Positions 37,331 through 49,786 of a stretch of 64,000 nucleotides of DNA are shown piece after piece. This stretch comes from Pelomonas sp. Root1217. Its GTDB lineage: Bacteria; Pseudomonadota; Gammaproteobacteria; Burkholderiales; Burkholderiaceae_C. The stretch is taken from NCBI RefSeq assembly GCF_001425705.1, contig NZ_LMDC01000032.1, forward strand, positions 1 to 64,000, read 5' to 3'. The notes beneath the pieces are model-generated. The model saw nothing but the letters and a program-made list of their open reading frames with translations. It did not search any database and was not told the origin of the DNA. The position numbers were made by a program, and so were the translations under genes. Every line of letters starts with the position of its first letter. Within the stretch, counting starts at the first letter, position 1.

Positions 37331-38800
37331 ATGACATTGACGATTCAACATGACGACCTGCTCCCCGGCCGCAACTTCATCGCGGGGCAATGGCGCGAGG
37401 CGCTGGAGGGTCAACGTTTCGGGGTGACCGACCCGGCGACCGACGCAGTGTTCGCCACTGTGCCGGACAGCGGGGCTCTCGACGCCGCTGCGGCGCTGGA
37501 AGCGGCCCATGCGGCCTTTCCGATCTGGCGTGCGGTGCCGGCCAAGCAACGAGCGCAGATTCTCAATCGCTGGAACGCACTGATCCTCGCGCACCAGGAC
37601 GACCTGGGCCGCCTGATCTCTCGTGAGCAGGGCAAACCGCTGGCCGAAGGGCGAGGGGAGGTCGCCTACGCTTCAAGTTATGTGGAATGGTTCGCTGCCG
37701 AAGCCACGCGTGCCAATGGCGACGTGATTCCCGCGTCGGTGCCCGGCCGGCGCATGTTCGCGCTGAGGGAGCCGGTCGGCGTCGTCGCCGCTATCACGCC
37801 CTGGAATTTCCCCGCGGCGATGATCGCGCGCAAGATCGCTCCCGCGCTGGCCGCCGGCTGTACCGTGGTCTGCAAGCCGGCCGAAGACACGCCGCTGACC
37901 TCGCTGGCGCTGGTCAAGCTGGCCGAGGAGGCAGGCGTTCCGGCGGGTGTGCTGAACATCGTGACTGCCTCGCGTGAACGCACGCCCGAGGTCGTCGATG
38001 TCTGGCTCGACGACCCGCGCGTGCGCAAGATCACCTTCACCGGCTCTACACCGGTGGGCAAGCATCTGGCGCGGCGCGCCGCCGACACGCTCAAGCGGCT
38101 GTCGCTGGAGCTAGGTGGCAACGCGCCCTTCATCGTCTTCGAGGACGCGGACCTCGACGCCGCCGTCGAAGGCCTGATGGTGGCCAAGTTCCGCAACGGC
38201 GGGCAGACCTGCGTCAGCCCGAATCGGGTGTTCGTGCAATCAAGCGTGCACGACGCCTTCGTCGAGAAGCTGGCCGCCCGCATCTCGGCGCTCAAGGTCG
38301 GTCCGGCCAGCGACTCGGCCTCACAGATCGGGCCGATGATCAATGCGAGAGCCGTCGACAAGATCGAGCGCCATGTGCAAGACGCCGTCGCGCGTGGCGC
38401 GGTCACGCGGGTCGGGGGCGCGCGGCTGGCAGCTCTCGGGCCGAACTACTTCGCGCCGACGCTGCTGGTCGGTGCCGATGGCGGCATGGCCTGCGCCTGC
38501 GAGGAAACCTTCGGACCGATGGTGGCCATCACCCGCTTCGAGACCGAAGCCGACGTGACCCGCGCGGCGAACGACACGCCTTTCGGCCTGGCCGGCTATT
38601 TCTATGCCACCGACTTGCGGCGCATCTGGCGCATGGCGGAGGCCTTGCAGACCGGCTTGGTGGGCGTCAACGAAGGCGCACTCGCGGCCGAGGCGGCACC
38701 GTTCGGCGGCGTCAAGGAGTCAGGCTACGGGCGTGAGGGCTCCGTGCATGGCCTGGACGATTACACGCAGCTGAAGTATGTGTGCCAAGGGCAGCTCTGA
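37331..38800 (+). CDS. gabD: Succinate-semialdehyde dehydrogenase-like (GabD) aldehyde dehydrogenase
   Basis: 489 residues from the ATG at 37331. Key parts are PWNFPAAMIARKIAPALAAG, KPAEDTPL, the general base Glu in LELGGNAPF (about 260) and the nucleophile Cys in GGQTCVSPNRV (about 294), plus the C-terminal AAPFGGVKESGYGREGS. These match GabD-type enzymes, which give succinate from succinate semialdehyde with NADP. It is the last step expected for a gamma-aminobutyrate route from putrescine. It is the last chromosomal-type gene before the accessory island. Confidence 0.85.
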   Translation: MTLTIQHDDLLPGRNFIAGQWREALEGQRFGVTDPATDAVFATVPDSGALDAAAALEAAHAAFPIWRAVPAKQRAQILNRWNALILAHQDDLGRLISREQGKPLAEGRGEVAYASSYVEWFAAEATRANGDVIPASVPGRRMFALREPVGVVAAITPWNFPAAMIARKIAPALAAGCTVVCKPAEDTPLTSLALVKLAEEAGVPAGVLNIVTASRERTPEVVDVWLDDPRVRKITFTGSTPVGKHLARRAADTLKRLSLELGGNAPFIVFEDADLDAAVEGLMVAKFRNGGQTCVSPNRVFVQSSVHDAFVEKLAARISALKVGPASDSASQIGPMINARAVDKIERHVQDAVARGAVTRVGGARLAALGPNYFAPTLLVGADGGMACACEETFGPMVAITRFETEADVTRAANDTPFGLAGYFYATDLRRIWRMAEALQTGLVGVNEGALAAEAAPFGGVKESGYGREGSVHGLDDYTQLKYVCQGQL

Positions 38801-39292
38801 CAGAGGCGGCCACTGAATTTTGGCGACAATGTGCATTATGTTAAATTGACATCGTCCTTAGCTGCTCGCGATGGTCGGAGCTAGTGGCTGCCGGAAGCAT
38901 TCATGCACGTGCAATGTGAAGCAACACTGCACGCCACCGCCTCTTGGGCAGCCACTGGTTGGGACTGACCCAACTGTGCTGACCCCCTGGTTGCGGCCTA
39001 CCTGACAGTCCTTACCACTTTCCGGCCGTTCCTTGGCGGATCCGCCGGACGCCATGTTTCCTGCGACTGGCTTTCACACGCCGAACTTTGCTCACCGTTA
39101 GCCGCGCCGACGGTCAGCGGCGACATACCTTTGCTGCACTTCGAGCGGTACTTGGCTGTCGTCGACCAAGCATTGCCGCCAGAAACTCCAGACTTTGGCT
39201 GTCGAATGTCGACCTCTGCTGCACTTGGCTGCTACGAACATCAGCTTGCTGCTGATTGGACAACCGAGCGCAGACCGACAACGCCAACCCAT
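38801..39292. other. Gene-poor left part of the accessory island
   Basis: About 490 bp without a convincing gene. It starts with an AT-rich stretch (38830-38852, around TGCATTATGTTAAATTGACA), unlike the high-GC surroundings, and includes a perfect 12-bp palindrome GGCGGATCCGCC (39035-39046). Short open frames exist on both strands but none has protein-like features. The sharp loss of coding density right after the GabD-like gene suggests an insertion edge. Confidence 0.5.
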
Positions 39293-39392
39293 AGGCAATT
39301 TCAGGCTCCGTTTCAGCCTATCAGGCTTCGACCTCCCTGTGCGCCATGAGCCTGTCACACCCATGGGAACGTCGCTTGTATGGAGTCAAATA
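39293..39392 (+). repeat. Direct repeat copy 1 (about 100 bp)
   Basis: This segment and 39805-39903 are homologous along their length. The identical core is 31 bp (39350-39380, starting CCTGTCACACCCATGGG), followed by GAGTCAA-TAC in both. Outside the core, identity is lower but clear. The two copies are in the same orientation, 512 bp apart. Confidence 0.85.
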
Positions 39393-39410
39393 CCACCATG
39401 AGGAGTCATC

Positions 39411-39740
39411 TCAGATCCAGCCCAACTGGGCCGCCCAGTCGCCGCTTTTGAAGCACGAGATGTCCGGTGGCAGCCATGGATGCGTGGGGATCCAACTGAC
39501 TGAAAGCACCTTCCGCCCAGGGACGGCCCAGACCTCGACCATCGACGATAGGCCAGGGTCATCAGGCAGACGCAGCGCGGTCTTCGTGAACAACAGGCTG
39601 AAGCCCGGCAGATCGAGAATCCAGTGGGTTGGGGTCGCGGCGTTGCCCTCGCAATAGCGGCCCTCCCCTTGAATCCGCGCGGGCAGCGCGCCGATGGCCC
39701 AGCGGGCAATTTCGAGCTTGGGGACCTTCACTTGAGTCAT
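39411..39740 (-). CDS. Hypothetical protein flanked by 100-bp direct repeats
   Basis: 109 residues, ATG start at 39740. The product has several Trp and Pro residues (HWILDLPGFSLLF, PTHPWLPPDIS) and no recognised domain, signal peptide or membrane helix. The gene lies inside the unit bounded by the two direct repeats: one copy ends 19 bp beyond its stop, the other begins 64 bp before its start. Base use is less extreme than in the core genes. It may be a passenger gene of a cassette-like unit. Function unknown; coding status is plausible, not certain. Confidence 0.5.
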   Translation of the reverse strand: MTQVKVPKLEIARWAIGALPARIQGEGRYCEGNAATPTHWILDLPGFSLLFTKTALRLPDDPGLSSMVEVWAVPGRKVLSVSWIPTHPWLPPDISCFKSGDWAAQLGWI

Positions 39741-39804
39741 CGATGTCTGCGAATTCGAATCGCTGAGAGCGTCGCCGTCTATTCAGGCTGACGCCGACGC
39801 CGCT

Positions 39805-39903
39805 GGCAAATCCACGCTCCATATCAGCCTACCTCGCGTTGGCTCCGCTGTGCGAAATGAACCTGTCACACCCATGGGAACGTCGCTTGTATTGAGTCAA
39901 TAC
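39805..39903 (+). repeat. Direct repeat copy 2 (about 100 bp)
   Basis: Second copy of the repeat at 39293-39392, offset by 512 bp. Read on the minus strand, both copies contain ATGGGTGTGACAGG followed by similar codons (MGVTGS-RT...RL..S..LP), which run into a stop after about 30 codons here, so they may be remnants of a duplicated coding end. Confidence 0.85.
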
Positions 39904-40022
39904 AGATCCCAGCGTTCCAGACTTGGTGCCGGCTTGATCCGACGTACGGCCGACGGCGTCAGTTGATCGGTGCGCTTGCGCCGTCGACTAGCGACTGACC
40001 GGCAGCAACTCTGGGAAATGAC

Positions 40023-40598
40023 ATGACGCGCAAGACCTCGACTCGCCCAACTGTGCCCTATGAGGAGCGGCCGCTACCTGAGGACCTCTATCCGCGGTTT
40101 CTCAGCTGGCCCTCCGTCGAAGGTGAGCCGATCTCTCGGGTGCTGTCTTGTCTTCGCGATCTAGACGAGGTCGAGTTGAAGGAGTTCTTCAACATGAGGT
40201 CAAAGGACTTCTGCAGACTGACCCCCGCAGAACTCTTGTGCGGTCAGCCTGAATCAGACTCCCCGCTGGGAGAGCCTCAGGCCACTCTGCTGAAACTCCC
40301 CAGGCTGGTTCGGCTGGACATGGTTTGTGGCTCGGCTGCAAGGTTTAGGGAGCTCGTCTTCCGGCAACTGAGAGACATGGACGGCGCCGCCAACGACGCC
40401 GACAAGCGCAAACTTCTCGGGATTCGACGAACAACTGCGCAACTGATCGAGGCCGCCGCCGCCGCCCACGGGAGGTCAAAGAACAGCCGAGTGATCGCGG
40501 CGTTGAACGCCCTTCACAGCTTCTCAGAGGAGTTGGAGGTGGTCATTTCCCAGGCACGGGACGAAGGTCTGGCTAACCCTCGCGCAGCAGGGACTTGA
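40023..40598 (+). CDS. Hypothetical protein of the accessory island
   Basis: 191 residues from the ATG at 40023. The sequence is acidic and helical, with RVLSCLRDLDEVELKEFF and a C-terminal helical stretch (AAAAAHGRSKNSRVIAALNALHSFSEEL). No domain, signal or membrane segment is recognised. Its 3' end overlaps by 26 bp the end of the convergent gene at 40573-40806. It sits alone on the plus strand between the repeat unit and the minus-strand trio. Function unknown. Confidence 0.6.
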   Translation: MTRKTSTRPTVPYEERPLPEDLYPRFLSWPSVEGEPISRVLSCLRDLDEVELKEFFNMRSKDFCRLTPAELLCGQPESDSPLGEPQATLLKLPRLVRLDMVCGSAARFRELVFRQLRDMDGAANDADKRKLLGIRRTTAQLIEAAAAAHGRSKNSRVIAALNALHSFSEELEVVISQARDEGLANPRAAGT

Positions 40599-40806
40599 AG
40601 CCCCGTCGAATGCGGCTGGTGTGTCGTCGATCGCAGCGGCGACCCTGCGGCTGCGGCGAGACTTCAATCCGACCAAGCCCGACCTGGAACCATACGCGCT
40701 GGCCCAACCGCCACGGCGCAGTGCGTCCCGTCATCACCACTTGCTGGGTGCCGTCGGACCGGCGCTTCAGCCGAGTCACCGTCGTCGGAGCCCGACTACT
40801 TCTCAT
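40573..40806 (-). CDS. Small basic hypothetical protein, third gene of an overlapping trio
   Basis: 77 residues from the ATG at 40806, which has AGGGGG six bases upstream. It is strongly basic and Arg-rich (VTRLKRRSDGTQQVVMTGRTAPWRLGQRVWFQVG), with a beta-rich look that could be an AbrB- or SymE-like small nucleic-acid-binding fold, but no match is certain. It overlaps the preceding gene by 11 bp and the convergent gene by 26 bp. Probably translated with the two genes upstream. Confidence 0.5.
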   Translation of the reverse strand: MRSSRAPTTVTRLKRRSDGTQQVVMTGRTAPWRLGQRVWFQVGLGRIEVSPQPQGRRCDRRHTSRIRRGFKSLLREG

Positions 40807-41119
40807 GATTACCCCCTGCGGGGCCATCAGATGTGGCCGACCCAATGGGCAGCACTTCTTCAATGCTGCCGTCGCTGAGCCAGATCTCGATGGCGTTGTT
40901 GATGGTGTCCGACATCCGCCGCTGGTTGTCGAACAGCCAGTAGATGTCGCAACCGTCGAACATCAGTTTTCCCTGTCCCGGATCAACCAAAACGTCGTAC
41001 TGCTCTTGGCCATTGAAGAAACCCAGCATGATCTGCTTGCGGATATCGAAGTGGCGCTGGACGTGCCGCGTGCTCCGCTCGACGGCGCCTCGAGCGTCGT
41101 TCCCGCCCTCGCCGCTCAC
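40796..41119 (-). CDS. Hypothetical protein, second gene of an overlapping trio
   Basis: 107 residues, likely GTG start in a GTGA overlap with the upstream gene. It carries GKLMFDGCDIYWLFDNQRRMSDTINNAIEIWLSDGSIEEVLP, apparently alternating strands and one helix. No known domain. The tight overlaps on both sides mean the three minus-strand genes (41694 to 40573) are one translational unit and probably work together. Confidence 0.55.
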   Translation of the reverse strand: MSGEGGNDARGAVERSTRHVQRHFDIRKQIMLGFFNGQEQYDVLVDPGQGKLMFDGCDIYWLFDNQRRMSDTINNAIEIWLSDGSIEEVLPIGSATSDGPAGGNHEK

Positions 41120-41694
41120 GAGCTCTTCGTCCTTCTGCTGGCGGCGCCGCCGGCGCGGCGGTTCGAATCACCGGGAGCCGGCTTCGGCTTGACGCGGATT
41201 AGCAATTGCTTCTCGACATCGCCAACGTGCTCTGGAATCAACCCGCAATCGAACTCCTGGCCGGCGTTGTCCGCAAGGACGATGTGCTGGCCGCTGTGAG
41301 AGCTGAGAATCCAAACCTCTCGTATCTCACGAGACCACCATTGGCCAGTGGGCGACTGCCAAGCCGGCATCATGCAGACGATCCCTTTCACCCGCTCGGG
41401 GTCGAGCGGGCGCAGCACGTCAGCCAAGTCGTGGTCTCGGGCGATGCACAAGGTGCGTGTGATGCTGCGATCGCGCTCAGTGGGATCGACGAACTCCACC
41501 GAGAGCAGGAACCATGGAGCATGCAGGCTCAGCTCCACCATCCGCCAATGCAGGGTGCCCGGGTCATCGAGGGCAGGCGGCATTGGGGACTGGTACTCGG
41601 GGTGTGAAACGAACATGGCGGGAAGGTGGGCGAAACGGTCCGCCGGCGAAGTTTTGATAGCCACTGATTTTTTGGGCCGCCCTGCCGTATGCAA
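41116..41694 (-). CDS. Hypothetical protein, first gene of an overlapping trio
   Basis: 192 residues from a TTG codon at 41694; an internal ATG about 26 codons later (MFVSHPEYQ) is an alternative start. The N-terminus is basic (AGRPKKSVAIK), the middle has strand-rich WFLLSVEFVDPTERDRSITRTL, and the tail is Arg/Lys-rich. No known domain. It is divergent from an XRE regulator gene with 50 bp between them, so that regulator may control the trio. Confidence 0.55.
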   Translation of the reverse strand: MHTAGRPKKSVAIKTSPADRFAHLPAMFVSHPEYQSPMPPALDDPGTLHWRMVELSLHAPWFLLSVEFVDPTERDRSITRTLCIARDHDLADVLRPLDPERVKGIVCMMPAWQSPTGQWWSREIREVWILSSHSGQHIVLADNAGQEFDCGLIPEHVGDVEKQLLIRVKPKPAPGDSNRRAGGAASRRTKSS

Positions 41695-41744
41695 ATTCTT
41701 GATATCGAGTCGCTTGGGATACGGTGCGGGGCTGAGAGAAATCC

Positions 41745-42071
41745 ATGTCCAAATCCCTGTATAGCCGCCACAACGAAGCCTTTCTGAAGAAGCTCAAAGG
41801 CCTGCGCGAGTCACGCCAGTTGCGCCAGGCCGACCTTGGCGACCTGCTTGGCCGCAGCCAAGGCTGGGTCAGCTATGTCGAGAGCGGCGCCATCACCCTC
41901 AACGTCATCGAGCTGCGGGAATGGATCGAAGCGCTGGAGTTCAACTTCCTCGAGTTCCTGCAGGAACTGGACGAAGAGCTCCGCTGGCTCAGCGGCGTCG
42001 GTCTACGCCCCCGGCCGCACAAGCGAACTGTGAGGGCGGCGCACAGTCGACGGGCCCCGAGAGAGAAGTGA
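41745..42071 (+). CDS. XRE-family helix-turn-helix regulator
   Basis: 108 residues. The helix-turn-helix spans about 14-60 (LKGLRESRQLRQADLGDLLGRSQGWVSYVES), as in phage-repressor-type regulators; the C-terminus is basic. The ATG at 41745 follows GAGAGAA. It is divergent from the unknown trio and convergent with the two-gene XRE operon. Likely a repressor of island genes. Confidence 0.8.
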   Translation: MSKSLYSRHNEAFLKKLKGLRESRQLRQADLGDLLGRSQGWVSYVESGAITLNVIELREWIEALEFNFLEFLQELDEELRWLSGVGLRPRPHKRTVRAAHSRRAPREK

Positions 42072-42082
42072 GTTGGCTCAGC

Positions 42083-42343
42083 TCAGTGGCGGTCAGAAGT
42101 CGCTACCGCCAGGCGTCGTTCCAAGCGCTCAACAAAGCCATCGAGTGAGTTGCCACAGGCCTGGCACCATCGAAACAGCTCGACCACGTCGACCTCTCGC
42201 CGCCCTGCTTCGCTGAGCTCCACATCTCCCGCCTGGATATCAAGCTGCTCCGCCAACTCGTCCTGGCTCAGCCCCGCCTGCAGCCGTAGCTGCGTCAGCT
42301 CTGCAGCGAAGGCGACCACGGCCGCCGGCGACGTCGGGTTCAC
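42083..42343 (-). CDS. Small XRE-type helix-turn-helix protein
   Basis: 86 residues from a GTG start within a GTGA overlap with the gene upstream. The HTH is LTQLRLQAGLSQDELAEQLDIQAGDVELSEAGRR in two parts (about 16-49). The C-terminal half mentions FRWCQACGNSLDGFVERL, a short dimer-like helix. Co-translated with the other XRE gene. Could be part of a regulator pair or an antitoxin-like unit; no toxin is recognised beside it. Confidence 0.7.
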   Translation of the reverse strand: MNPTSPAAVVAFAAELTQLRLQAGLSQDELAEQLDIQAGDVELSEAGRREVDVVELFRWCQACGNSLDGFVERLERRLAVATSDRH

Positions 42344-42669
42344 GTGGTCTTGCGATGCCTGTCCCGCGTGCCAAGCCGCAGATCCTCGAACGAGGCGATC
42401 TCATCGCGGACAGCGGCCAGAACCTTGTCGACTTCCGCTGCCGTGCCCTTGTTGCAGAAGGACAGCGTCAGCAGGGTCAGCGGGTGGACGCCCATCGTCT
42501 GAGCCAACTGGGCGACCTTGTTCAGCGACGGGCTCGAACCCTGGTTCTCCAGACGGCTCAGGTGGGTGCGGCCCGAGACTTCGTAGAAGTCTTCTTGCGA
42601 CAGCCCGCGCTCAAGCCGCACGGCACGTAGCGCCTGTCCGAATTTGGGGGTGGCTGTCTTGAGACTCAT
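42340..42669 (-). CDS. XRE-family helix-turn-helix regulator
   Basis: 109 residues from the ATG at 42669. The HTH is ALRAVRLERGLSQEDFYEVSGRTHLSRLENQ (two contiguous parts, about 13-43), close to phage-type repressors; the rest is helical (LAQLAQTMGVHPLTLLTLSF). It ends in the GTGA overlap with the next XRE gene. Three XRE genes within one kilobase suggest layered control of the island or an immunity circuit. Confidence 0.8.
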   Translation of the reverse strand: MSLKTATPKFGQALRAVRLERGLSQEDFYEVSGRTHLSRLENQGSSPSLNKVAQLAQTMGVHPLTLLTLSFCNKGTAAEVDKVLAAVRDEIASFEDLRLGTRDRHRKTT

Positions 42670-42839
42670 CGCGGGTCGATTCCGGCCCGCATTGGCTCAT
42701 CATGCACCTTTAAGGACTACACCTTATCCGGTGCGTTTGCATCGAGAACTCGGGCCATCTGAGCCCTTCTAGACTCCATCGACCACGGCCAGACATACCC
42801 ACTCCCAACCCGGCTGCCGACGGGCTGATTCGGACGCTT

Positions 42840-43202
42840 CTACGCCAGCTCGCTGAAACCCGCTTGCAGCTTGTCGCCGAGATTGCTGACCAGCGCCACG
42901 GCCTGGAGTGACGGATAGTCCGCCCGGCTGCCGGCCATCGATGCCGCGGTGCGGCGACAGGCGCCAGCGACCGACGCGGCCGCGGCGGCGATTTCACCGT
43001 TCGGCTTCTCCAGCGCGATCGTCAAGCGCAGCACCTGAACCAGGCGGTCGACGTCGCCGAGGCGCACGGCCAGTTGGCGCTGCCAGGGCTTGGTGCGGGT
43101 CATCCTTTTGAGGATCAGCTGCACCAGCTCGTCCAGGTCATTGATCGTCTTGGCCACCGACACCAGCTTGGGGTCGGCCAGGCTACCCGTCAGTTCGCTC
43201 AT
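42840..43202 (-). CDS. Small helical protein co-encoded with the KfrA-like gene
   Basis: 120 residues, all-helical and without known domain (LADPKLVSVAKTINDLDELVQLIL; later VAGACRRTAASMAGS). Its ATG overlaps the stop of the KfrA-like gene (ATGA, 43199-43202), so the two are translationally coupled and may bind each other. Genes of this kind often accompany KfrA-type proteins next to tyrosine recombinases in mobile elements; a role in element maintenance is inferred. Confidence 0.6.
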   Translation of the reverse strand: MSELTGSLADPKLVSVAKTINDLDELVQLILKRMTRTKPWQRQLAVRLGDVDRLVQVLRLTIALEKPNGEIAAAAASVAGACRRTAASMAGSRADYPSLQAVALVSNLGDKLQAGFSELA

Positions 43203-44245
43203 GGACCGCCAGAGTCTGCCTTGCGGCGACTGCCGCGCTTGGTCGTCGTGCTTCCTTCGGGCGTCGGCGGCGGCGTCAGTCGCTCCACCATAGCCTGCAA
43301 GGTCCGGGCTTCGGCCTGGTGGCGAGACACCGCCTGCTGGCTTTCGGCGAGCTGCTGCTGAAGCTCTGCCACTTGACGGCTGAGTCCATCCCGGGCTTTG
43401 ACCGCCGCGTCCAGCGCGAGCTTGGCCTGATTGACGTCGATCTCCAGGCGTGTGGCCTTGGCCGCGTGCTGGACCGCCTGTTCTCGTGCGGCAGCTTCGA
43501 TCTGGGAAAGCTTCTGGCGTGCAGCCTCGGCGCTTGTGTCAGCCCTTGCGCGCGCCTGGCGCTCCTGCTCGATTTCCCTGAGCGCCCTGCGTTCGGCGCC
43601 AGCGGCGCGCTCATTGGCGGCCTCGATGGCCTCCCGAGACTTGGCTAATTCGGCGGCGAACCCCTCCTGCAGCGCTTGCTGTTGTCGGCCTGCTTCTTCG
43701 AGCTGGCTCTGCATCTGTTGGACCCGTGCCTGCGTCCCGGCATGGGAACGGCGCTCGGCCTCGAGTTCCTCGCGAGTGGCCTGGCTCTCAGCCTGGACCC
43801 GTTCCATGTTGGCGCGCTGCTCCACGGCGGCTTCCTGCATGCGGGCGACCGCCTGTTCTGCGGTGTCCCGGCTGGCCCTGGCCTGTTCAGCTTCCTGCTG
43901 GAATTCCAACCGCGCCGCGGCAAGTTCGCCTCGCGCGGCCTCGGTGGCCTGGCTCCAGAGCGCAGCGATGGCTTCGGCGGCCACGGCTTTGATGGGATCC
44001 GGCAGGTCTGGATGCTGGATGTCGACGCGCGCCCGGTGTCGCAGGTCGTCCCAGAACTTGCCAACCTCTTCGGTCGGCACGTTCATCGATCCGCGGCGGA
44101 CGTACTGGTACAGCTTGTTGGCGGTCGGTGTGATGCCGAACCTGAAGAACAGCAGCGCGCAGACCTCGCGATACAAGGCCCGCGTGTCGCTGAAATTGGC
44201 CTTCAGTGCCTCGACTTCGCTCAGGATCTCAGTCTCTGTGTTCAT
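43199..44245 (-). CDS. KfrA-like DNA-binding coiled-coil protein
   Basis: 348 residues. The N-terminal KfrA_N domain (about 10-95) includes FFRFGITPTANKLYQYVRRG and VGKFWDDLRHRARV. From about 100 to 320 it is a nearly unbroken Ala/Glu/Gln/Arg coiled coil, and the tail is basic (TTTKRGSRRKAD). Plasmid KfrA binds inverted repeats at its own promoter and forms filaments that aid partition. Here it is divergent from the recombinase gene, with a matching palindrome between them, so it probably represses both. Confidence 0.85.
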   Translation of the reverse strand: MNTETEILSEVEALKANFSDTRALYREVCALLFFRFGITPTANKLYQYVRRGSMNVPTEEVGKFWDDLRHRARVDIQHPDLPDPIKAVAAEAIAALWSQATEAARGELAAARLEFQQEAEQARASRDTAEQAVARMQEAAVEQRANMERVQAESQATREELEAERRSHAGTQARVQQMQSQLEEAGRQQQALQEGFAAELAKSREAIEAANERAAGAERRALREIEQERQARARADTSAEAARQKLSQIEAAAREQAVQHAAKATRLEIDVNQAKLALDAAVKARDGLSRQVAELQQQLAESQQAVSRHQAEARTLQAMVERLTPPPTPEGSTTTKRGSRRKADSGGP

Positions 44246-44253
44246 GGTGTAAA

Positions 44254-44268
44254 TATTACGACGTAATA
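44254..44268. promoter_or_regulatory. Perfect palindrome TATTACG-A-CGTAATA, likely KfrA operator
   Basis: A 15-bp site with 7-bp perfect arms begins nine bases upstream of the KfrA-like start codon, where an autoregulatory operator is expected. KfrA-type proteins bind such palindromes. The surrounding 90 bp are far more AT-rich than the genes on either side. Confidence 0.6.
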
Positions 44269-44289
44269 CGTTAGATATCCAGCGATCAA

Positions 44290-44318
44290 TTGGATTATTT
44301 TGACATTACCTGTATAGT
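44290..44318 (+). promoter_or_regulatory. Predicted sigma-70 promoter of the tyrosine recombinase gene
   Basis: TTGGAT (44290-44295) and TATAGT (44313-44318) have an exact 17-bp spacer and lie 33 bp before the recombinase start. The -10 is inside a longer dyad (TTGACA...TGTCAA, 44300-44323) that may be a second operator. Confidence 0.65.
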
Positions 44319-44350
44319 GTCAAAAGTTCTTTAAACGGCCACGCAACGCG

Positions 44351-45607
44351 ATGCATGAGACCTCTGAGGCGCCAAAGGCGATGTCGACGAGCATCACCGC
44401 CCTGCCCCCGCTGGACGAAATCGCCGTCGTCGAGGAGATGTCCGGCCGTCACGGCTCGAACCGGTCGACCGGCAAATGTCAGCTCAGCGCAGACACCGAT
44501 CAGGAGGCAGTCCTGGCATGGTTGGCGCGGTACGCCGACAGTCCCAACACCCTGGCCAACGGCCGCCGCGAGGCGGAGCGCCTGCTGCTCTGGTCGCTCA
44601 CCGAGCGGCGCAAGCCGCTGTCCTCCCTGACGCACGAAGATCTGCTGGTCTACCGCCGCTTCTTGGCGAACCCCCAGCCAGCCGACCGGTGGGTGATGGC
44701 ACCAGGCCGCAAGCCTGGCCGGCGGGATCCCCGCTGGCGCCCATTCGCCGGCCCACTGTCCGAGGCCAGCATCCGACAGTCCATGGTGGTGCTGAACTCC
44801 ATGATGTCTTGGCTGGTCGAGGCCGGCTATCTGCGCGGCAATCCGCTGTCGTTGAGCCGAACCCGCCGCAAGGCCCCTCCCCCGCGCGTGGTGCGCTTCC
44901 TGGAAGCCGACCTCTGGGAAGCCGTTTGCCAGACCATCCTCGCCCTGCCGCAGGAGACGCCTCGCCAGCGGGCGGTCTATGCGCGCGCCCGGTGGCTGTT
45001 CAGCCTGATGTTCCTGGGCGGCCTGCGCATCTCGGAGGTCGTCAGCAACGGCATGGGCGATTTCTTCATGCGCTCGGACCCCAAGACCGGTGACCAGCGC
45101 TGGTGGCTACAGGCCACAGGCAAGGGTGACAAAGAGCGCCTGATTCCAGCCACGGCGGAGTTGATGGTCGAGTTGATGAATTACCGGCGCTCGCTCGAGC
45201 TGAACGACCTTCCTCAGCCGGCCGAACCGTCACCACTGATTTTCCCGGTCGCCTGGCGTCGATCCACCCATCCAGCGCCGGCCTGGCCGGAGCCGCTCAC
45301 GCGCAGCGCCATCCACGGCATCCTGAAACAGATCTTCGCGCTCGCTGCTGATCAGTGGCGGCGGAACGGCCGAGGCGACGCACAAGCCGCAAGACTGGAG
45401 GCTGCCTCGGCCCACTGGCTGCGCCACACCGCTGGATCGAACTTGTCCAACCAGATCGATCTGAAGCATGTGCGGGACACCCTCGGCCATGTCTCGATTG
45501 CCACGACCAGCATCTACGTGCATGGCGAAGACGATGCCCGCCACGATGCAGTGAGCAGCGCCCATCGCATGAGCTGGGACACCGTGGGCAACTCACCAAA
45601 GACCTGA
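44351..45607 (+). CDS. Site-specific tyrosine recombinase (phage-type integrase)
   Basis: 418 residues. The N-terminal SAM-like DNA-binding part (about 50-175) is followed by the catalytic domain with a complete set of residues: Arg226 (LGGLRISEV), Lys258 (ATGKGDK), His355 and Arg358 (SAHWLRHTAGS), His380 (LGHVSIATT) and Tyr389 (SIYVHG). It has no extra insertion of integron integrases. It likely moves or has moved the island. The next gene follows 14 bp later, so both are probably co-transcribed. Confidence 0.9.
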   Translation: MHETSEAPKAMSTSITALPPLDEIAVVEEMSGRHGSNRSTGKCQLSADTDQEAVLAWLARYADSPNTLANGRREAERLLLWSLTERRKPLSSLTHEDLLVYRRFLANPQPADRWVMAPGRKPGRRDPRWRPFAGPLSEASIRQSMVVLNSMMSWLVEAGYLRGNPLSLSRTRRKAPPPRVVRFLEADLWEAVCQTILALPQETPRQRAVYARARWLFSLMFLGGLRISEVVSNGMGDFFMRSDPKTGDQRWWLQATGKGDKERLIPATAELMVELMNYRRSLELNDLPQPAEPSPLIFPVAWRRSTHPAPAWPEPLTRSAIHGILKQIFALAADQWRRNGRGDAQAARLEAASAHWLRHTAGSNLSNQIDLKHVRDTLGHVSIATTSIYVHGEDDARHDAVSSAHRMSWDTVGNSPKT

Positions 45608-45621
45608 GCGAGCCCCTTCCC

Positions 45622-46809
45622 ATGCGACTCGCGTTCTTTCCCTGGATACGCCTGGACGAGCCGATGACGCTCGGAGACGTGCGCCTGATCCCCTACTTCC
45701 GCAAGGCTCGCTCGCTGCCACTGGCACACATCCCCAAGGCTGACGTCGACGCTATCTTCAAGGCCTACGCCGACCGGCCCGGCAAGGCCGTACAGCACGG
45801 CGTCATTGTTGAAGTGGCGGACTGGCACTCCGGTACCGACATGCCCGCGCCGGTCTTTGATCGCCTATGGCAGGTCAAGGAGATTCTGACCCTAAGCGCA
45901 CTGGCCAGTCGGCACCTGTTCGTTAGTGACGGAAGCTATGTGAATAGCCACGCATATGCCCTAGTCGTCCAAAACTTCACGGCCGGCTCGGCCCACGGTT
46001 TCGCGTTCTCGACGCGGCGTCGTGACGGCGTCGCGACCAACTTCTGGTCGAGCGAACAGTTCGCGTTCCAGCGGCCTCTGCACGTGTCGGATCGCTGGCG
46101 CGTGACCGTCGATGTCAAGCTTGCCGAAGCGCTGCTGGCGCTGCCCGTCGACGATCCAATACTGGAGGCGATCCGAGAATTCAACGCCGCCAACACTGAT
46201 TCAGGCGACGTCGCGCCCCATGTAGAGATCGTCATGGTCAAGTCGGCCTTCGAGTGGCTGCTCGGCATTGACGAGAAGCGCAGTTCCCTTTCGGCGGCGC
46301 TGACAAAGCTCTTTCCCGCACCCGCCCACGGCGCGGAAGGCGGGCCGCTGAGGGACGCATGGCTCAAGCGGCACAAGCCTTCAGATCAAAGACTGCTGTC
46401 GGCGTGGGTCGCCGACTTCTGCGTCCTTCGTGGTTCGGCCGCCCACGGCAAGGGACGGGGTCGCGCGCCGACGGTCTGGGACCACTTCCCTCACCTGGCG
46501 TTTGCCTCCATCTTGTTCCCGCTGCTGGTGAAGAAGGTCCTCGCTGAACGCGGGCTTTACCGCCCCTCAGACCGGGACAACGACGAGTTCGCACACATCG
46601 AAGACTATCTCGAGGTCGATCCTCGCGCAACGGAAGACATGCCGCATGAATTCGCATGGAGCGGCGTGCGCCGAAAGCTCACCGAGTTGGCGCTTGGCCG
46701 AGGGCTGCACAAGGCGATCCTTGATGCATTGAACAAGACACAGGCAGTCGACGCTGCGCCGCCAACGGCGGCCGAGAAAAGGCGCCGGCCTCGCAAAACA
46801 GACCGATGA
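45622..46809 (+). CDS. Unknown protein with a possible HEPN motif, downstream of the recombinase
   Basis: 395 residues from the ATG at 45622. No familiar domain is clear in the N-terminal two thirds. Near the C-terminus, DFCVLRGSAAHGKG holds Arg270-x4-His275, the R-x4-6-H signature of HEPN ribonuclease folds, in a helical region followed by long helices. The tail is basic (AAEKRRRPRKTDR). HEPN proteins are often RNases of defence or toxin systems, but the motif is short and could be chance. It ends 36 bp before the convergent Ntn-hydrolase gene. Confidence 0.55.
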   Translation: MRLAFFPWIRLDEPMTLGDVRLIPYFRKARSLPLAHIPKADVDAIFKAYADRPGKAVQHGVIVEVADWHSGTDMPAPVFDRLWQVKEILTLSALASRHLFVSDGSYVNSHAYALVVQNFTAGSAHGFAFSTRRRDGVATNFWSSEQFAFQRPLHVSDRWRVTVDVKLAEALLALPVDDPILEAIREFNAANTDSGDVAPHVEIVMVKSAFEWLLGIDEKRSSLSAALTKLFPAPAHGAEGGPLRDAWLKRHKPSDQRLLSAWVADFCVLRGSAAHGKGRGRAPTVWDHFPHLAFASILFPLLVKKVLAERGLYRPSDRDNDEFAHIEDYLEVDPRATEDMPHEFAWSGVRRKLTELALGRGLHKAILDALNKTQAVDAAPPTAAEKRRRPRKTDR

Positions 46810-46845
46810 CGCCAAGGCGCGGGAGGCGCCCTACATCGCCCAAGC

Positions 46846-47610
46846 TCACACCGCGGCTTCGCCGGAGCCCAAGAAGTCGTTCGTGCCGAGGCTCAGCAGG
46901 TCGTCCACAGCGCCATCGAAATAGCGGGACACGCTGTGCGTATCCGGATCCTTGATGGTCACGCCGATTTGTGCACGTGCTGAAGCTTCCTTGCTGTGCC
47001 GGCTCACAACGCCGATGAACGCGGCGGCGGCCTTCATAATTCTGATGCCGTCGCCTGTCCTGCGCGACAAATCCAGTTCGTTAAAGAACACCTGCTTTGC
47101 TGACGCCGCCACGTTGGTTGGTACGTCCAACGGCGTATTGGCCACGAACACACCTCGGTTCGCTGCGGTGCGAGGGTCGTCGGGCCCAACACCAAGTGTC
47201 CACACGCCACCATCGGGGCTGAGCTCGGCGCCAATTACCAGCGTCTCTCGCAGCTGAGCAGTCGGCACGCCCATCTCGCTCAACGCGCGGGCTTCCAACG
47301 CCTCTCTTGCTCGGTCAAGGGTCGATTGGGCTAGATTGAACCGGGCAGCCTTGGCTTCGCGCAGTGCGTCAAGCACCAGCGAGCCGCTCACAAACTCGCC
47401 CGTGATGACTGCCCAACCGGCGCCCAGGAAGCGGATTTTTCGCTGCCGGTAGGGAATCACTGCCTCTCGCCCCAGCAACGCCAGGCCCACGGGCAGATCT
47501 TTCGGGCCATCATGGACGGCAGGCTCGCCAAGATCATGGTGCAAGACAACGCGCGTGTCGGCTGCAGCGACGACCACGCCTGGAATGGAGGCGATGAAGC
47601 AGAAGGTCAT
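46846..47610 (-). CDS. Proteasome-fold (Ntn) hydrolase-like protein
   Basis: 254 residues. The start MTFCFIASIPGVVVAAADTR aligns with proteasome/HslV/Anbu beta subunits (Thr1, then G-V-V-x-A-A-D-T-R): after Met removal, Thr2 is the nucleophile, Asp18 sits 16 residues on as in beta subunits, and Lys58 (RQRKIRFLGAGWAVITGE) fills the Lys33 place after an insert of about 25 residues. The following SGSLVLDAL and TLVIGAELSPDGG resemble the core helices and strands. It is not HslV: there is no HslU gene nearby. It is translated just after the AlbA_2-like gene (8-bp gap). The role is unknown; a peptidase or self-processing function is inferred. Confidence 0.65.
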   Translation of the reverse strand: MTFCFIASIPGVVVAAADTRVVLHHDLGEPAVHDGPKDLPVGLALLGREAVIPYRQRKIRFLGAGWAVITGEFVSGSLVLDALREAKAARFNLAQSTLDRAREALEARALSEMGVPTAQLRETLVIGAELSPDGGVWTLGVGPDDPRTAANRGVFVANTPLDVPTNVAASAKQVFFNELDLSRRTGDGIRIMKAAAAFIGVVSRHSKEASARAQIGVTIKDPDTHSVSRYFDGAVDDLLSLGTNDFLGSGEAAV

Positions 47611-47618
47611 GCTCGAAC

Positions 47619-48263
47619 CTATCCCTTAGGAAACCGAACCAGGAGCATGGGCCGGTATTTCTCCTCGTCGTAGGTGACGGTGATGTTTTCCAGTGGCTCT
47701 GTAATTCGCTCGCCCCGGGCGATGTCTTCGAGCCTCACCATGTGCGCTGTGCAGGCGCTGATCCGGCACTCACGAGTCTCCAAGTAGCCCGCGTCACCCA
47801 GCGGCTTCTGGCTTCCCACCTTGTAGCCAATCCCGCGCACGGTGAAGACGTCATGCCTGTGCCTGAGAATTTCTCGGGCCTTGTCGACTCGGCTGAGGAT
47901 CAGCTCTTCAAACTGCGCCGCCGAGGCCTTCGGGCTCTCTGATCCAACTCGAACGTAGGCCGGGCCGCTGAAATGCGGCTTCAAATCACTCGGCGGGATG
48001 ACGACCGCCACGACCGCCTTGTCGCCTACGGCCAGAACTTCGGATTTGTATTCGATGGGTGGGTAACAGTCGCCCTGAGCGGCATCGCGGATGCGCTTCT
48101 GCATGTGGTCGGTGTTGGTGACGCCCATGACCTCACCTGTCTTGTCATGGATGCCAACGTGTTGGCCTGCTAAGTCCTTTTTCGCTGTTTCTACCGCTAG
48201 GACGGCGTTTCCTGAGACCAAAGTCAGAAAGACCAACGAAGCGGTGGGCGTAGCGTTGTCCAC
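47619..48263 (-). CDS. AlbA_2/Schlafen-domain-like protein
   Basis: 214 residues from a GTG start; an in-frame stop lies six codons upstream, so it cannot extend far. Residues about 35-130 fit the AlbA_2 (Schlafen-type) fold: HVGIHDKTGEVMGVTN, then PPIEYKSEVLAVGDKAVVAVVIPPSDLKPHF and AYVRVGSESPKA (read as separate motifs). The usual N-terminal strand of the fold seems short or missing. AlbA_2 proteins bind nucleic acid or act as RNases or regulators in defence and mobile elements. It is first in an operon with the Ntn-hydrolase-like gene. Confidence 0.65.
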   Translation of the reverse strand: MDNATPTASLVFLTLVSGNAVLAVETAKKDLAGQHVGIHDKTGEVMGVTNTDHMQKRIRDAAQGDCYPPIEYKSEVLAVGDKAVVAVVIPPSDLKPHFSGPAYVRVGSESPKASAAQFEELILSRVDKAREILRHRHDVFTVRGIGYKVGSQKPLGDAGYLETRECRISACTAHMVRLEDIARGERITEPLENITVTYDEEKYRPMLLVRFPKG

Positions 48264-48601
48264 CGCCAGCCGGGCGCGCTAGCGCCCGGCCCCTTCTCCG
48301 TGGGTCCTCGCGCGCAGCCAGCCGCATCGCGCTTCACGAGCACACTGATTCAGGCGATGGAGACCGGGGGCGCGTAAGCGCCTCAAGGGTTCAAAACGCA
48401 TGTGGGCGAAGAGATCCCCCTCCTGCCACGAGCGCGTGAGGGCTGGACTGCGAGAGGCAATGCGCCGGATCACTGCACATGGGTCATGCTCCGACGTCAT
48501 TTCGGCCGCCAGTCAAGCTAGCGCTTGGGCAGCGCATTGCCGCCTACAGGACAACGCCTAGCCCCGCCTGAAGGCGGCCCCTCGCCTGCGCCTTCCGGGG
48601 G
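48264..48601. other. 338-bp gap at the right end of the island, with two hairpins
   Basis: No gene is convincing here. A perfect 9-bp stem GCCGGGCGC-GCTA-GCGCCCGGC (48269-48290) lies directly upstream of the AlbA_2-like start, on the 5' side of that operon. A shorter CCGCC-TGAA-GGCGG hairpin (48564-48577) follows the hmp stop codon and may be its terminator, though it lacks a T tail. This gap is where the island appears to end. Confidence 0.5.
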
Positions 48602-49786
48602 TCAGGCGGCCAGCAGATCCTCGGCGGGGCCGAAGAACTCGTAGCGAAGCTGTGCCGCCTGTACGCCCAGCGCCAAGCCGTGCGCGTAGACCGCCCGCAT
48701 GAAAGACTTTGGACCCAGCAGGTACACATCGACATCGCGGTCGGCGGGCATATGGCGTGCTAGCAACTCGCGGTCGACGCGGCCCACCGCGTGCGGACGG
48801 TCCGCGGCACGCGGCTCGTCGTAGACATAGACCACCTCAACGTTGTGATGAGCCCGCGCCAGCTCGTCGACACGTTCGCGGAAGGCATGCGCCCCGCCGT
48901 GCCGCGCGGCATGGATGAATCGAATTGGCCTGCCGCCGGCCGCTGCCACCTCCAGCATGGCCATCGCTGGCGTGATGCCCACGCCGCCCGTCACCAGCAG
49001 CAGCGGGCGTTGGGCCTGGTCGTCCAGCGTGAACTCGCCCGCCGGCGGCTGCACCTGCAGGAGGGCGCCGGCCTCGACCTGGTCGTGCAGCCAGTTGGAC
49101 GCGATGCCACCGTCCTCACGTTTGACGCTGATGCGGTACCAGGGCTGATGCGGCCCGTCGGACAGCGAGTAGTTGCGTCTCAGCCGCCTGCCATCAATGT
49201 CCAGCGCCAGCGTGAGGTACTGGCCAGCACGGAAGGCCGGCAGCGGCCGGGCGTCGGTCGGCACGAGGTAGAACGAAGTGATGATGTCGCTCTCCCTCAC
49301 CTTGCGCATGACGCGCATCGTGCGTTCGCCGCGCCAGCCACCGGGCTGCGCCGCTGTCTGCGCATAGACCGCTTCCTCAGCGTCGATCAGCAGTCGTGCA
49401 AGGGCGTCGTAGGCCTCGGCCCAGGCGGCCATGATCTCGTCCGTCGCCACCTCGCCCAGCACATGGCGGATGGCGCGCAACAGAACGCCTCCGACGATGG
49501 GGTAGTGCTCGGGCTGCACGCCCAGCGCTACATGTTTCTGGATGATGCGCGGCAGCGCCGGTGCCAGGGCCTCCAAGCGGTCGATGTGGCTGGCATAGGC
49601 CAGCACTGCGCCGGCCAGTGCGCGGGCCTGCGTGCCCTGTGCCTGATGCGCCTCGTTGAAGAAGGCTTTCAGCTCGGGGTGCTCGTCCAGCATGGTCCGG
49701 TAGAAGTGGCGGGTAATTTCTTCGCCGCGCGCTTTCAGCAGCGGCACGGTTGCCTGAATCAGTGCAATGGTCCTGGTCGAAAACAT
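48602..49786 (-). CDS. hmp: Flavohaemoglobin, nitric oxide dioxygenase
   Basis: 394 residues. The globin domain (about 1-140) has Tyr29, Gln53 and proximal His85 at the same positions as E. coli Hmp. The FAD domain has RRNYSLSDG, and the NAD domain GGVGITPAMAML. It converts NO to nitrate with O2 and NAD(P)H in the cytoplasm. The frame is open for 53 further codons upstream, but the ATG at 49786 has AGGAG eight bases before it and starts the globin fold exactly. Divergent from norR, which should activate it. Confidence 0.95.
   Translation of the reverse strand: MFSTRTIALIQATVPLLKARGEEITRHFYRTMLDEHPELKAFFNEAHQAQGTQARALAGAVLAYASHIDRLEALAPALPRIIQKHVALGVQPEHYPIVGGVLLRAIRHVLGEVATDEIMAAWAEAYDALARLLIDAEEAVYAQTAAQPGGWRGERTMRVMRKVRESDIITSFYLVPTDARPLPAFRAGQYLTLALDIDGRRLRRNYSLSDGPHQPWYRISVKREDGGIASNWLHDQVEAGALLQVQPPAGEFTLDDQAQRPLLLVTGGVGITPAMAMLEVAAAGGRPIRFIHAARHGGAHAFRERVDELARAHHNVEVVYVYDEPRAADRPHAVGRVDRELLARHMPADRDVDVYLLGPKSFMRAVYAHGLALGVQAAQLRYEFFGPAEDLLAA

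Follow-up and report, generated by a model that had tools for sequence, protein, structure and literature searches.

Do two minus-strand genes that lie 8 bp apart in a mobile segment encode a functional unit, or are they unrelated genes that came to lie side by side? The first-pass annotation of this locus had favored a unit, proposing that a nucleic-acid-sensing AlbA_2/Schlafen-like protein is coupled to a proteasome-fold Ntn hydrolase in a new type of defence or conflict module. The window (the whole stretch of DNA analysed, 64,000 nt) is part of contig 32 in a 6.6-Mb genome. Both open reading frames (ORFs) were found where that annotation had placed them, on the minus strand and separated by 8 bp, with the AlbA_2 ORF upstream:

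46846-47610, minus strand: ATG-started ORF of a 254-aa orphan protein, a probable proteasome-like Ntn hydrolase by its N-terminal resemblance to Anbu; no homologues found
47619-48263, minus strand: GTG-started, 214-aa ORF of a 5'-truncated SLFN_AlbA_2 gene, by its match to PF04326

The GC contents at the three codon positions are gene-like for both ORFs (0.68/0.48/0.71 for the 254-aa ORF and 0.63/0.42/0.72 for the AlbA_2 ORF). The reading that we prefer, with a probability of about 0.6, is that a widespread recombinase-KfrA module carries two unrelated cargo genes next to each other in its variable slot, one an AlbA_2 remnant and the other a solitary, divergent proteasome-like Ntn hydrolase. 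Overall, the earlier observation was confirmed in part and its interpretation supported in part.

Cargo block and carrier module

The DNA that carries the pair was delimited by comparison with G008, a genome of the same genus. By blastn, window positions 40572-45577, which form the module left of the cargo, align with G008 at 76.8% identity, while the right flank aligns from 48258 (to 49693) at 95.7% identity. Between module and flank the window holds 2,680 bp where G008 has 73 bp (L042, 18490-18562), so the HEPN-like, 254-aa and AlbA_2 genes constitute a cargo block that is absent from G008. The 254-aa and AlbA_2 ORFs sit at the edge of this block:

41116-43202: other carrier-module ORFs (120 aa, three HTH proteins, 192 aa), with matches to HTH families
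43199-44245, minus strand: KfrA_N coiled-coil protein, 348 aa (PF11740, E 5.3e-16)
44351-45607, plus strand: tyrosine recombinase, 418 aa (Phage_integrase PF00589, E 1.1e-15)
45578-48257: cargo block, 2,680 bp, with 73 bp at the same place in G008
45622-46809, plus strand: HEPN-like ORF, 395 aa, a separate cargo gene with relatives on plasmids and in genome G013

The cargo block and the recombinase bear out the earlier description of a mobile setting with a tyrosine recombinase alongside the pair. The module in 40572-45577 runs from the 192-aa ORF through the three HTH ORFs, the 120-aa ORF and KfrA to the recombinase, an order that is identical in the window, G008 and G013. Unlike the gene order, the cargo after the recombinase varies from copy to copy when judged by eye, with metal-efflux-like operons and transposases behind other recombinase copies. 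The recombinase is present in 10 of 20 genomes of the genus, its own included (E ≤ 1e-60), and has relatives in 1,609 plasmid records (E ≤ 1e-20); the recombinase-KfrA module gives at most three matches per genome within the genus. A repeat search of 38700-48700 returned no readable pair of att sites. Left of the carrier module, two 96-nt direct repeats (39294-39389 and 39805-39900), 81% alike, lie 511 bases apart.

The ORF adjoining the pair had been flagged as a possible HEPN protein. It contains the sequence RGSAAH, which fits the HEPN motif RX4-6H, and a Pfam search with it gave no match. Relatives occur on five plasmid records, including pMOL28 of Cupriavidus metallidurans and Microvirga plasmids, and in G013, where one lies behind the same recombinase module (87% over the 224 residues before the contig ends); G008 gave a weak (22%) match. 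No match to the 254-aa protein was detected in G013, the assembly of which is fragmented and 91% complete. A weak PADLOC hit of the HEPN-like frame to PDC-S40 (E 0.0065) covered residues 20-65, ahead of the start used (45622), and was set aside.

Front end of the AlbA_2 gene

Membership of the upstream gene in the AlbA_2/Schlafen group is supported by its match to SLFN_AlbA_2 (PF04326), which at 36.3 bits passes the Pfam cut-off of 25.3. This match spans only profile positions 37-116 of 118, and the complete domain with both glutamates is absent. None of the alignments to relatives, drawn from six plasmid records, four other genomes, ten genome loci and one viral contig, begins before query residue 35. 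The remaining homology and the DNA ahead of it divide as follows:

47622-48158, minus strand: part of the AlbA_2 frame homologous to full-length relatives, residues 36-214, from alignments to them
48159-48257, minus strand: about 99 bp between the AlbA_2 homology and the common flank, in which an N-terminal profile run against three frames left no trace of the missing N-terminus

When applied to all three frames of 48101-48600, the N-terminal profile did not detect the ED-x3-ERK...AFAN front end in any of them and found merely the first residues of the remaining AlbA_2 part; a full-length relative used as a control scored 94 bits, but that relative was itself in the profile. Because the G008 alignment begins at 48258, the first two codons, GTG included, belong to the flank common to the window and G008. 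With its front end absent and its start in the common flank, we conclude that the open frame belongs to a truncated gene and now begins in foreign DNA. Judged from the sequence, what had been described as a short N-terminus is a lost one, and the proposed intact nucleic-acid sensor is not supported, since the front part of the AlbA_2 domain is gone. The ORF is most likely the remnant of a small (~230-aa) Schlafen/AlbA_2 protein. Because the 5' end with the two presumed RNase-site glutamates is missing and the start lies in flanking DNA, this remnant is most likely inactive and presumably dead. The frame is nevertheless still open and gene-like, so selection on it is possible, which counts against reading it as a remnant.

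For comparison, the upstream DNA was read at 15 of 17 loci from the plasmid, genome and viral sets (all but L009 and L010). An in-frame N-terminus with ED-x3-ERK and AFAN was present in 13 of these 15 relatives, and the Asp of a G-[IVL]-x-D motif was kept in 11 of the 13 full-length relatives, with Asn in L020 and L023. The two others, L024 (5893-6453) and L025 (6022-6396), also lack the N-terminal part, so AlbA_2 truncation may recur; their alignments begin at query residues 66 and 82, with 36 unrelated residues in place of the N-terminus in L024 and none in L025. Together with the open, gene-like frame in the window and the many residues that its AlbA_2 part keeps in common with relatives, these two copies would fit a short form that functions without the front end, as a nucleic-acid-binding or decoy protein. 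We consider such a variant unlikely, as the closest relatives, L016, L017 and L018 (65-66%), all have the full N-terminus and the start codon of the window copy comes from flanking DNA. In addition, the L024 gene comes after an ORF that resembles a transposase by eye, which suggests that this copy is broken too.

The residues carried by the missing stretch can be placed by comparison with characterized Schlafen-type RNases. Rat SLFN13 has the acidic residues E205, E210 and D248, and its E205A and E210A variants are reported to be inactive (PMC5862951); for SAMD9L the residues are E186/E198/D243 (PMC11221667). By hand count, L016 and L018 contain Glu-x4-Glu-x35-Asp, with spacings of 5 and 36 that are close to the 5 and 38 of rat SLFN13 as given in the former source (PMC5862951). 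From this order and spacing, the Glu/Glu/Asp of the AlbA_2 relatives may represent the RNase triad. Unlike Schlafen-type RNases, the window copy lacks the stretch that bears both glutamates.

The intact relatives (L016-L023, L026 and L005-L008) are stand-alone Schlafen/AlbA_2 proteins of ~230 aa with the ED-x3-ERK...AFAN...GxxD pattern, found on plasmids, in islands and in one viral contig, and it is possible that they constitute a small mobile RNase family. Their neighbours vary; those at AlbA_2 loci, by annotation or by eye, include an integrase, DUF4238, RelE, a restriction-modification-like pair and recombinases. In L017 (3380-6537), the AlbA_2 relative lies directly behind two ORFs that by eye are methyltransferase-like and restriction endonuclease-like. 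G154, a genome placed in the same family as that of the window, carries the AlbA_2 gene of the Albitalea terrae record NZ_QUSW01000009, and weak AlbA_2 matches were obtained in G048, G262 and G443 (E 4e-4 to 1e-3).

Resemblance of the 254-aa protein to proteasome homologues

The 254-aa protein is an orphan, with no credible homologue in any collection searched. It gave no proteasome match in Pfam, PADLOC, NCBIfam, PDB sequences or PHROGs, and none to PF00227 at E ≤ 1; a PF00227 search of its own genome returned two other genes, read as HslV and Anbu, and not the 254-aa gene. No homologues were found in plasmids or phages, nor in genome contigs and viral contigs scanned with six exact 8-residue peptides, a scan that reveals close relatives only. 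In overlapping genome sets, it was detected in its own genome only among 100 relatives, 398 genomes of the phylum and 210 of the order (one genome in each set), while its own genome plus weak matches accounted for 3 of 399 genomes of the family (L003, L004) and 2 of 369 of the class (L027). These weak matches, all partial, at 19-22 bits and without the N-terminus, were set aside as chance; by eye, moreover, the L003 frame runs antisense to what is likely an oxidoreductase ORF. Counter to the chance reading, L003 and L004 reached blastp E values of 6e-6 and 9e-4 in a small locus set. An AlphaFold2 single-sequence model was unusable (pLDDT 38.2, pTM 0.28), nothing matched it at E ≤ 0.001 in a Foldseek search, and the 50 matches listed included no proteasome; the strand and helix order in the model is compatible with a beta subunit but was given no weight.

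The resemblance to proteasome homologues is centered on the N-terminus:

47552-47610, minus strand: N-terminal motif MT-F-C-x13-D-T-R (Thr2, Asp18), read from the translation

Proteasome-like proteins use an N-terminal Thr (or Ser) nucleophile with Asp17, Lys33 and, for the oxyanion, Gly47. Thr2, Asp18 and Lys58, which had been noted earlier, are all present in the translation, and Gly71, 13 residues past Lys58, is near the expected place of the oxyanion Gly, such that Lys58 and Gly71 fit Lys33 and Gly47. The start of the protein, MTFCFIASIPGVVVAAADTRV, aligns without gaps with the start of Anbu from its own genome, MTYCVAMRLRAGLLFASDTRT, and shares with Anbu the MT-aromatic-C start, Thr2 and Asp18-Thr-Arg in ungapped register. 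On a matrix built from 16 Anbu N-termini, the first 22 residues match Anbu without gaps and score 7.6 bits. None of 6,531 other in-frame starts, taken from the window and the fetched loci with the Anbu and HslV loci left out, reached this score (best, 3.6 bits). Shuffled sequences did so in 7 of 200,000 cases, although such shuffle counts overstate the weight of the similarity because it came to notice when a reader looked through many genes. An HslV N-terminal matrix gave -2.8 bits, which counts against the Ntn reading.

A gapped Anbu+HslV HMM separated the protein less sharply from chance. Scores as high as that of the 254-aa protein were reached by 2 of 8,525 starts and 5 of 5,000 shuffles over strands S1-S2, by 86 of 8,525 and 70 of 5,000 for the Lys/Gly region alone, and by 4 of 8,525 and 0 of 5,000 for both regions together. 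Whole-length HMM scores were weak: of 5,000 shuffles, 26 did as well with the HslV model, 133 with the Anbu model and 136 with the combined one. Probabilities from hhalign were 2.5% for Anbu, 1.3% for HslV (in a different region, residues 118-149) and 3.2% for both. The local alignment placed residues 1-22 on Anbu 1-22 and scored 22.3, the highest of 60 shuffles reaching 21.8; with Anbu+HslV, too, the local score exceeded all 60 shuffles. Global alignments failed. A DNA signature of the N-terminus occurred once in the window, in 0 of 100 shuffles and nowhere in the viral contigs, where an Anbu query also found nothing.

Could the 254-aa protein be an unrelated orphan with an N-terminus that is proteasome-like by chance? 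It has no family library match and no PDB proteasome match, its whole-length scores are weak, its single-sequence model is useless, and the resemblance was picked from many genes. In that case the AlbA_2 gene would still be a remnant and there would be no module. Against chance, the Anbu register is ungapped over 22 residues, is anchored at Met1 and beats 6,531 other starts, and Lys58-Gly71 provides a second, independent but weak signal (1% of starts). We regard a chance resemblance as a real possibility, though an improbable one. The earlier claim of a proteasome-type protein is supported as regards a plausible N-terminal active site, with an Anbu match above chance; the fold is not confirmed by any library match.

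We consider it fairly likely that the 254-aa protein has an Ntn fold; the probable reading is a proteasome-like Ntn hydrolase that is solitary and very divergent. The mechanism proposed here is inferred, as are the fold and the substrate. Removal of Met1 would make Thr2 the N-terminal nucleophile, Asp18 and Lys58 would assist, and Gly71 would form the oxyanion hole. Such a hydrolase would need neither an AAA+ partner of its own nor the AlbA_2 remnant.

The pair in the context of known systems

Whether the two genes recur together was examined by comparing the 254-aa protein with ORFs of at least 60 aa at 17 AlbA_2 loci (L005-L010 and L016-L026; L012 is the same place as L018). No relative was present in the examined flanks, some of which are short (L019 has only ~100 bp of downstream DNA after the AlbA_2 gene); the best matches had E values of 3.1 (blastp) and 0.21 (phmmer), the latter to an AlbA_2 ORF itself. 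The conserved pair that had been proposed therefore does not recur near these loci, trivially so, as the collections searched yielded no homologue of the 254-aa protein at all. PADLOC matched neither protein, which leaves the suggested defence module unsupported, and no paper on a pair of an Ntn hydrolase and a Schlafen/AlbA_2 protein was found in the open-access literature searched. Bacterial Schlafen RNases are named as defence effectors in work on BREX, in passages that make no mention of proteasome or Ntn (PMC12839542).

A functional nucleic-acid-sensing peptidase module acting in defence or conflict would fit two genes that share a strand, are separated by 8 bp and lie in a mobile cargo block with a HEPN-like gene adjoining, and intact AlbA_2 relatives likewise reside on plasmids and in islands. 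We consider it highly improbable, given the missing AlbA_2 front part, the lack of such a pair near the 17 loci, the absence of a PADLOC match for either protein and the different neighbours of the intact relatives. With the AlbA_2 N-terminus truncated, the pair does not consist of an intact AlbA_2 protein and a peptidase coupled to it. That the AlbA_2 C-terminal fragment is kept beside the 254-aa protein as a non-catalytic adaptor is perhaps a long shot. Because one partner is truncated and the pair does not recur, two cargo genes left adjacent by recombination provide the simplest account, and since the pair was not found elsewhere, the genes look like accidental neighbours rather than a new defence system.

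If the 254-aa gene is considered by itself, as our preferred reading implies, its protein has Lys and Gly at places plausible for the proteasome-like family (Anbu, HslV, BPH, connectase and 22 newer homologues), and beyond the N-terminus and the weak Lys/Gly match it has no recognizable similarity to that family. The Asp-Lys spacing in 20S beta subunits is 16; the 254-aa protein has ~24 extra residues between the two. The place of this insert is absent from the insertion sites that the available parts of the survey by Fuchs et al. (2021) list; these describe 22 new proteasome-like homologues, many of them very divergent, that lack AAA+ partners and informative gene contexts (PMC8665760). The 254-aa protein likewise lacks an AAA+ partner and may belong to one of their clusters; as one more orphan, it would be a further homologue of that kind. 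A more tentative and rather doubtful idea is that it is the first of a new, mobile lineage of proteasome-like hydrolases that stand alone and have an insert between the Asp17 and Lys33 strands.

These findings show that a small intergenic gap is insufficient to call a module: of the two genes here, one is truncated and lies at the edge of the cargo. If the Ntn reading is true, the 254-aa protein would be an unusually divergent, mobile addition to the proteasome-like family, many newer branches of which lack known function. The intact ~230-aa Schlafen-like relatives, found on plasmids and islands with varied neighbours, may be the more testable lead.
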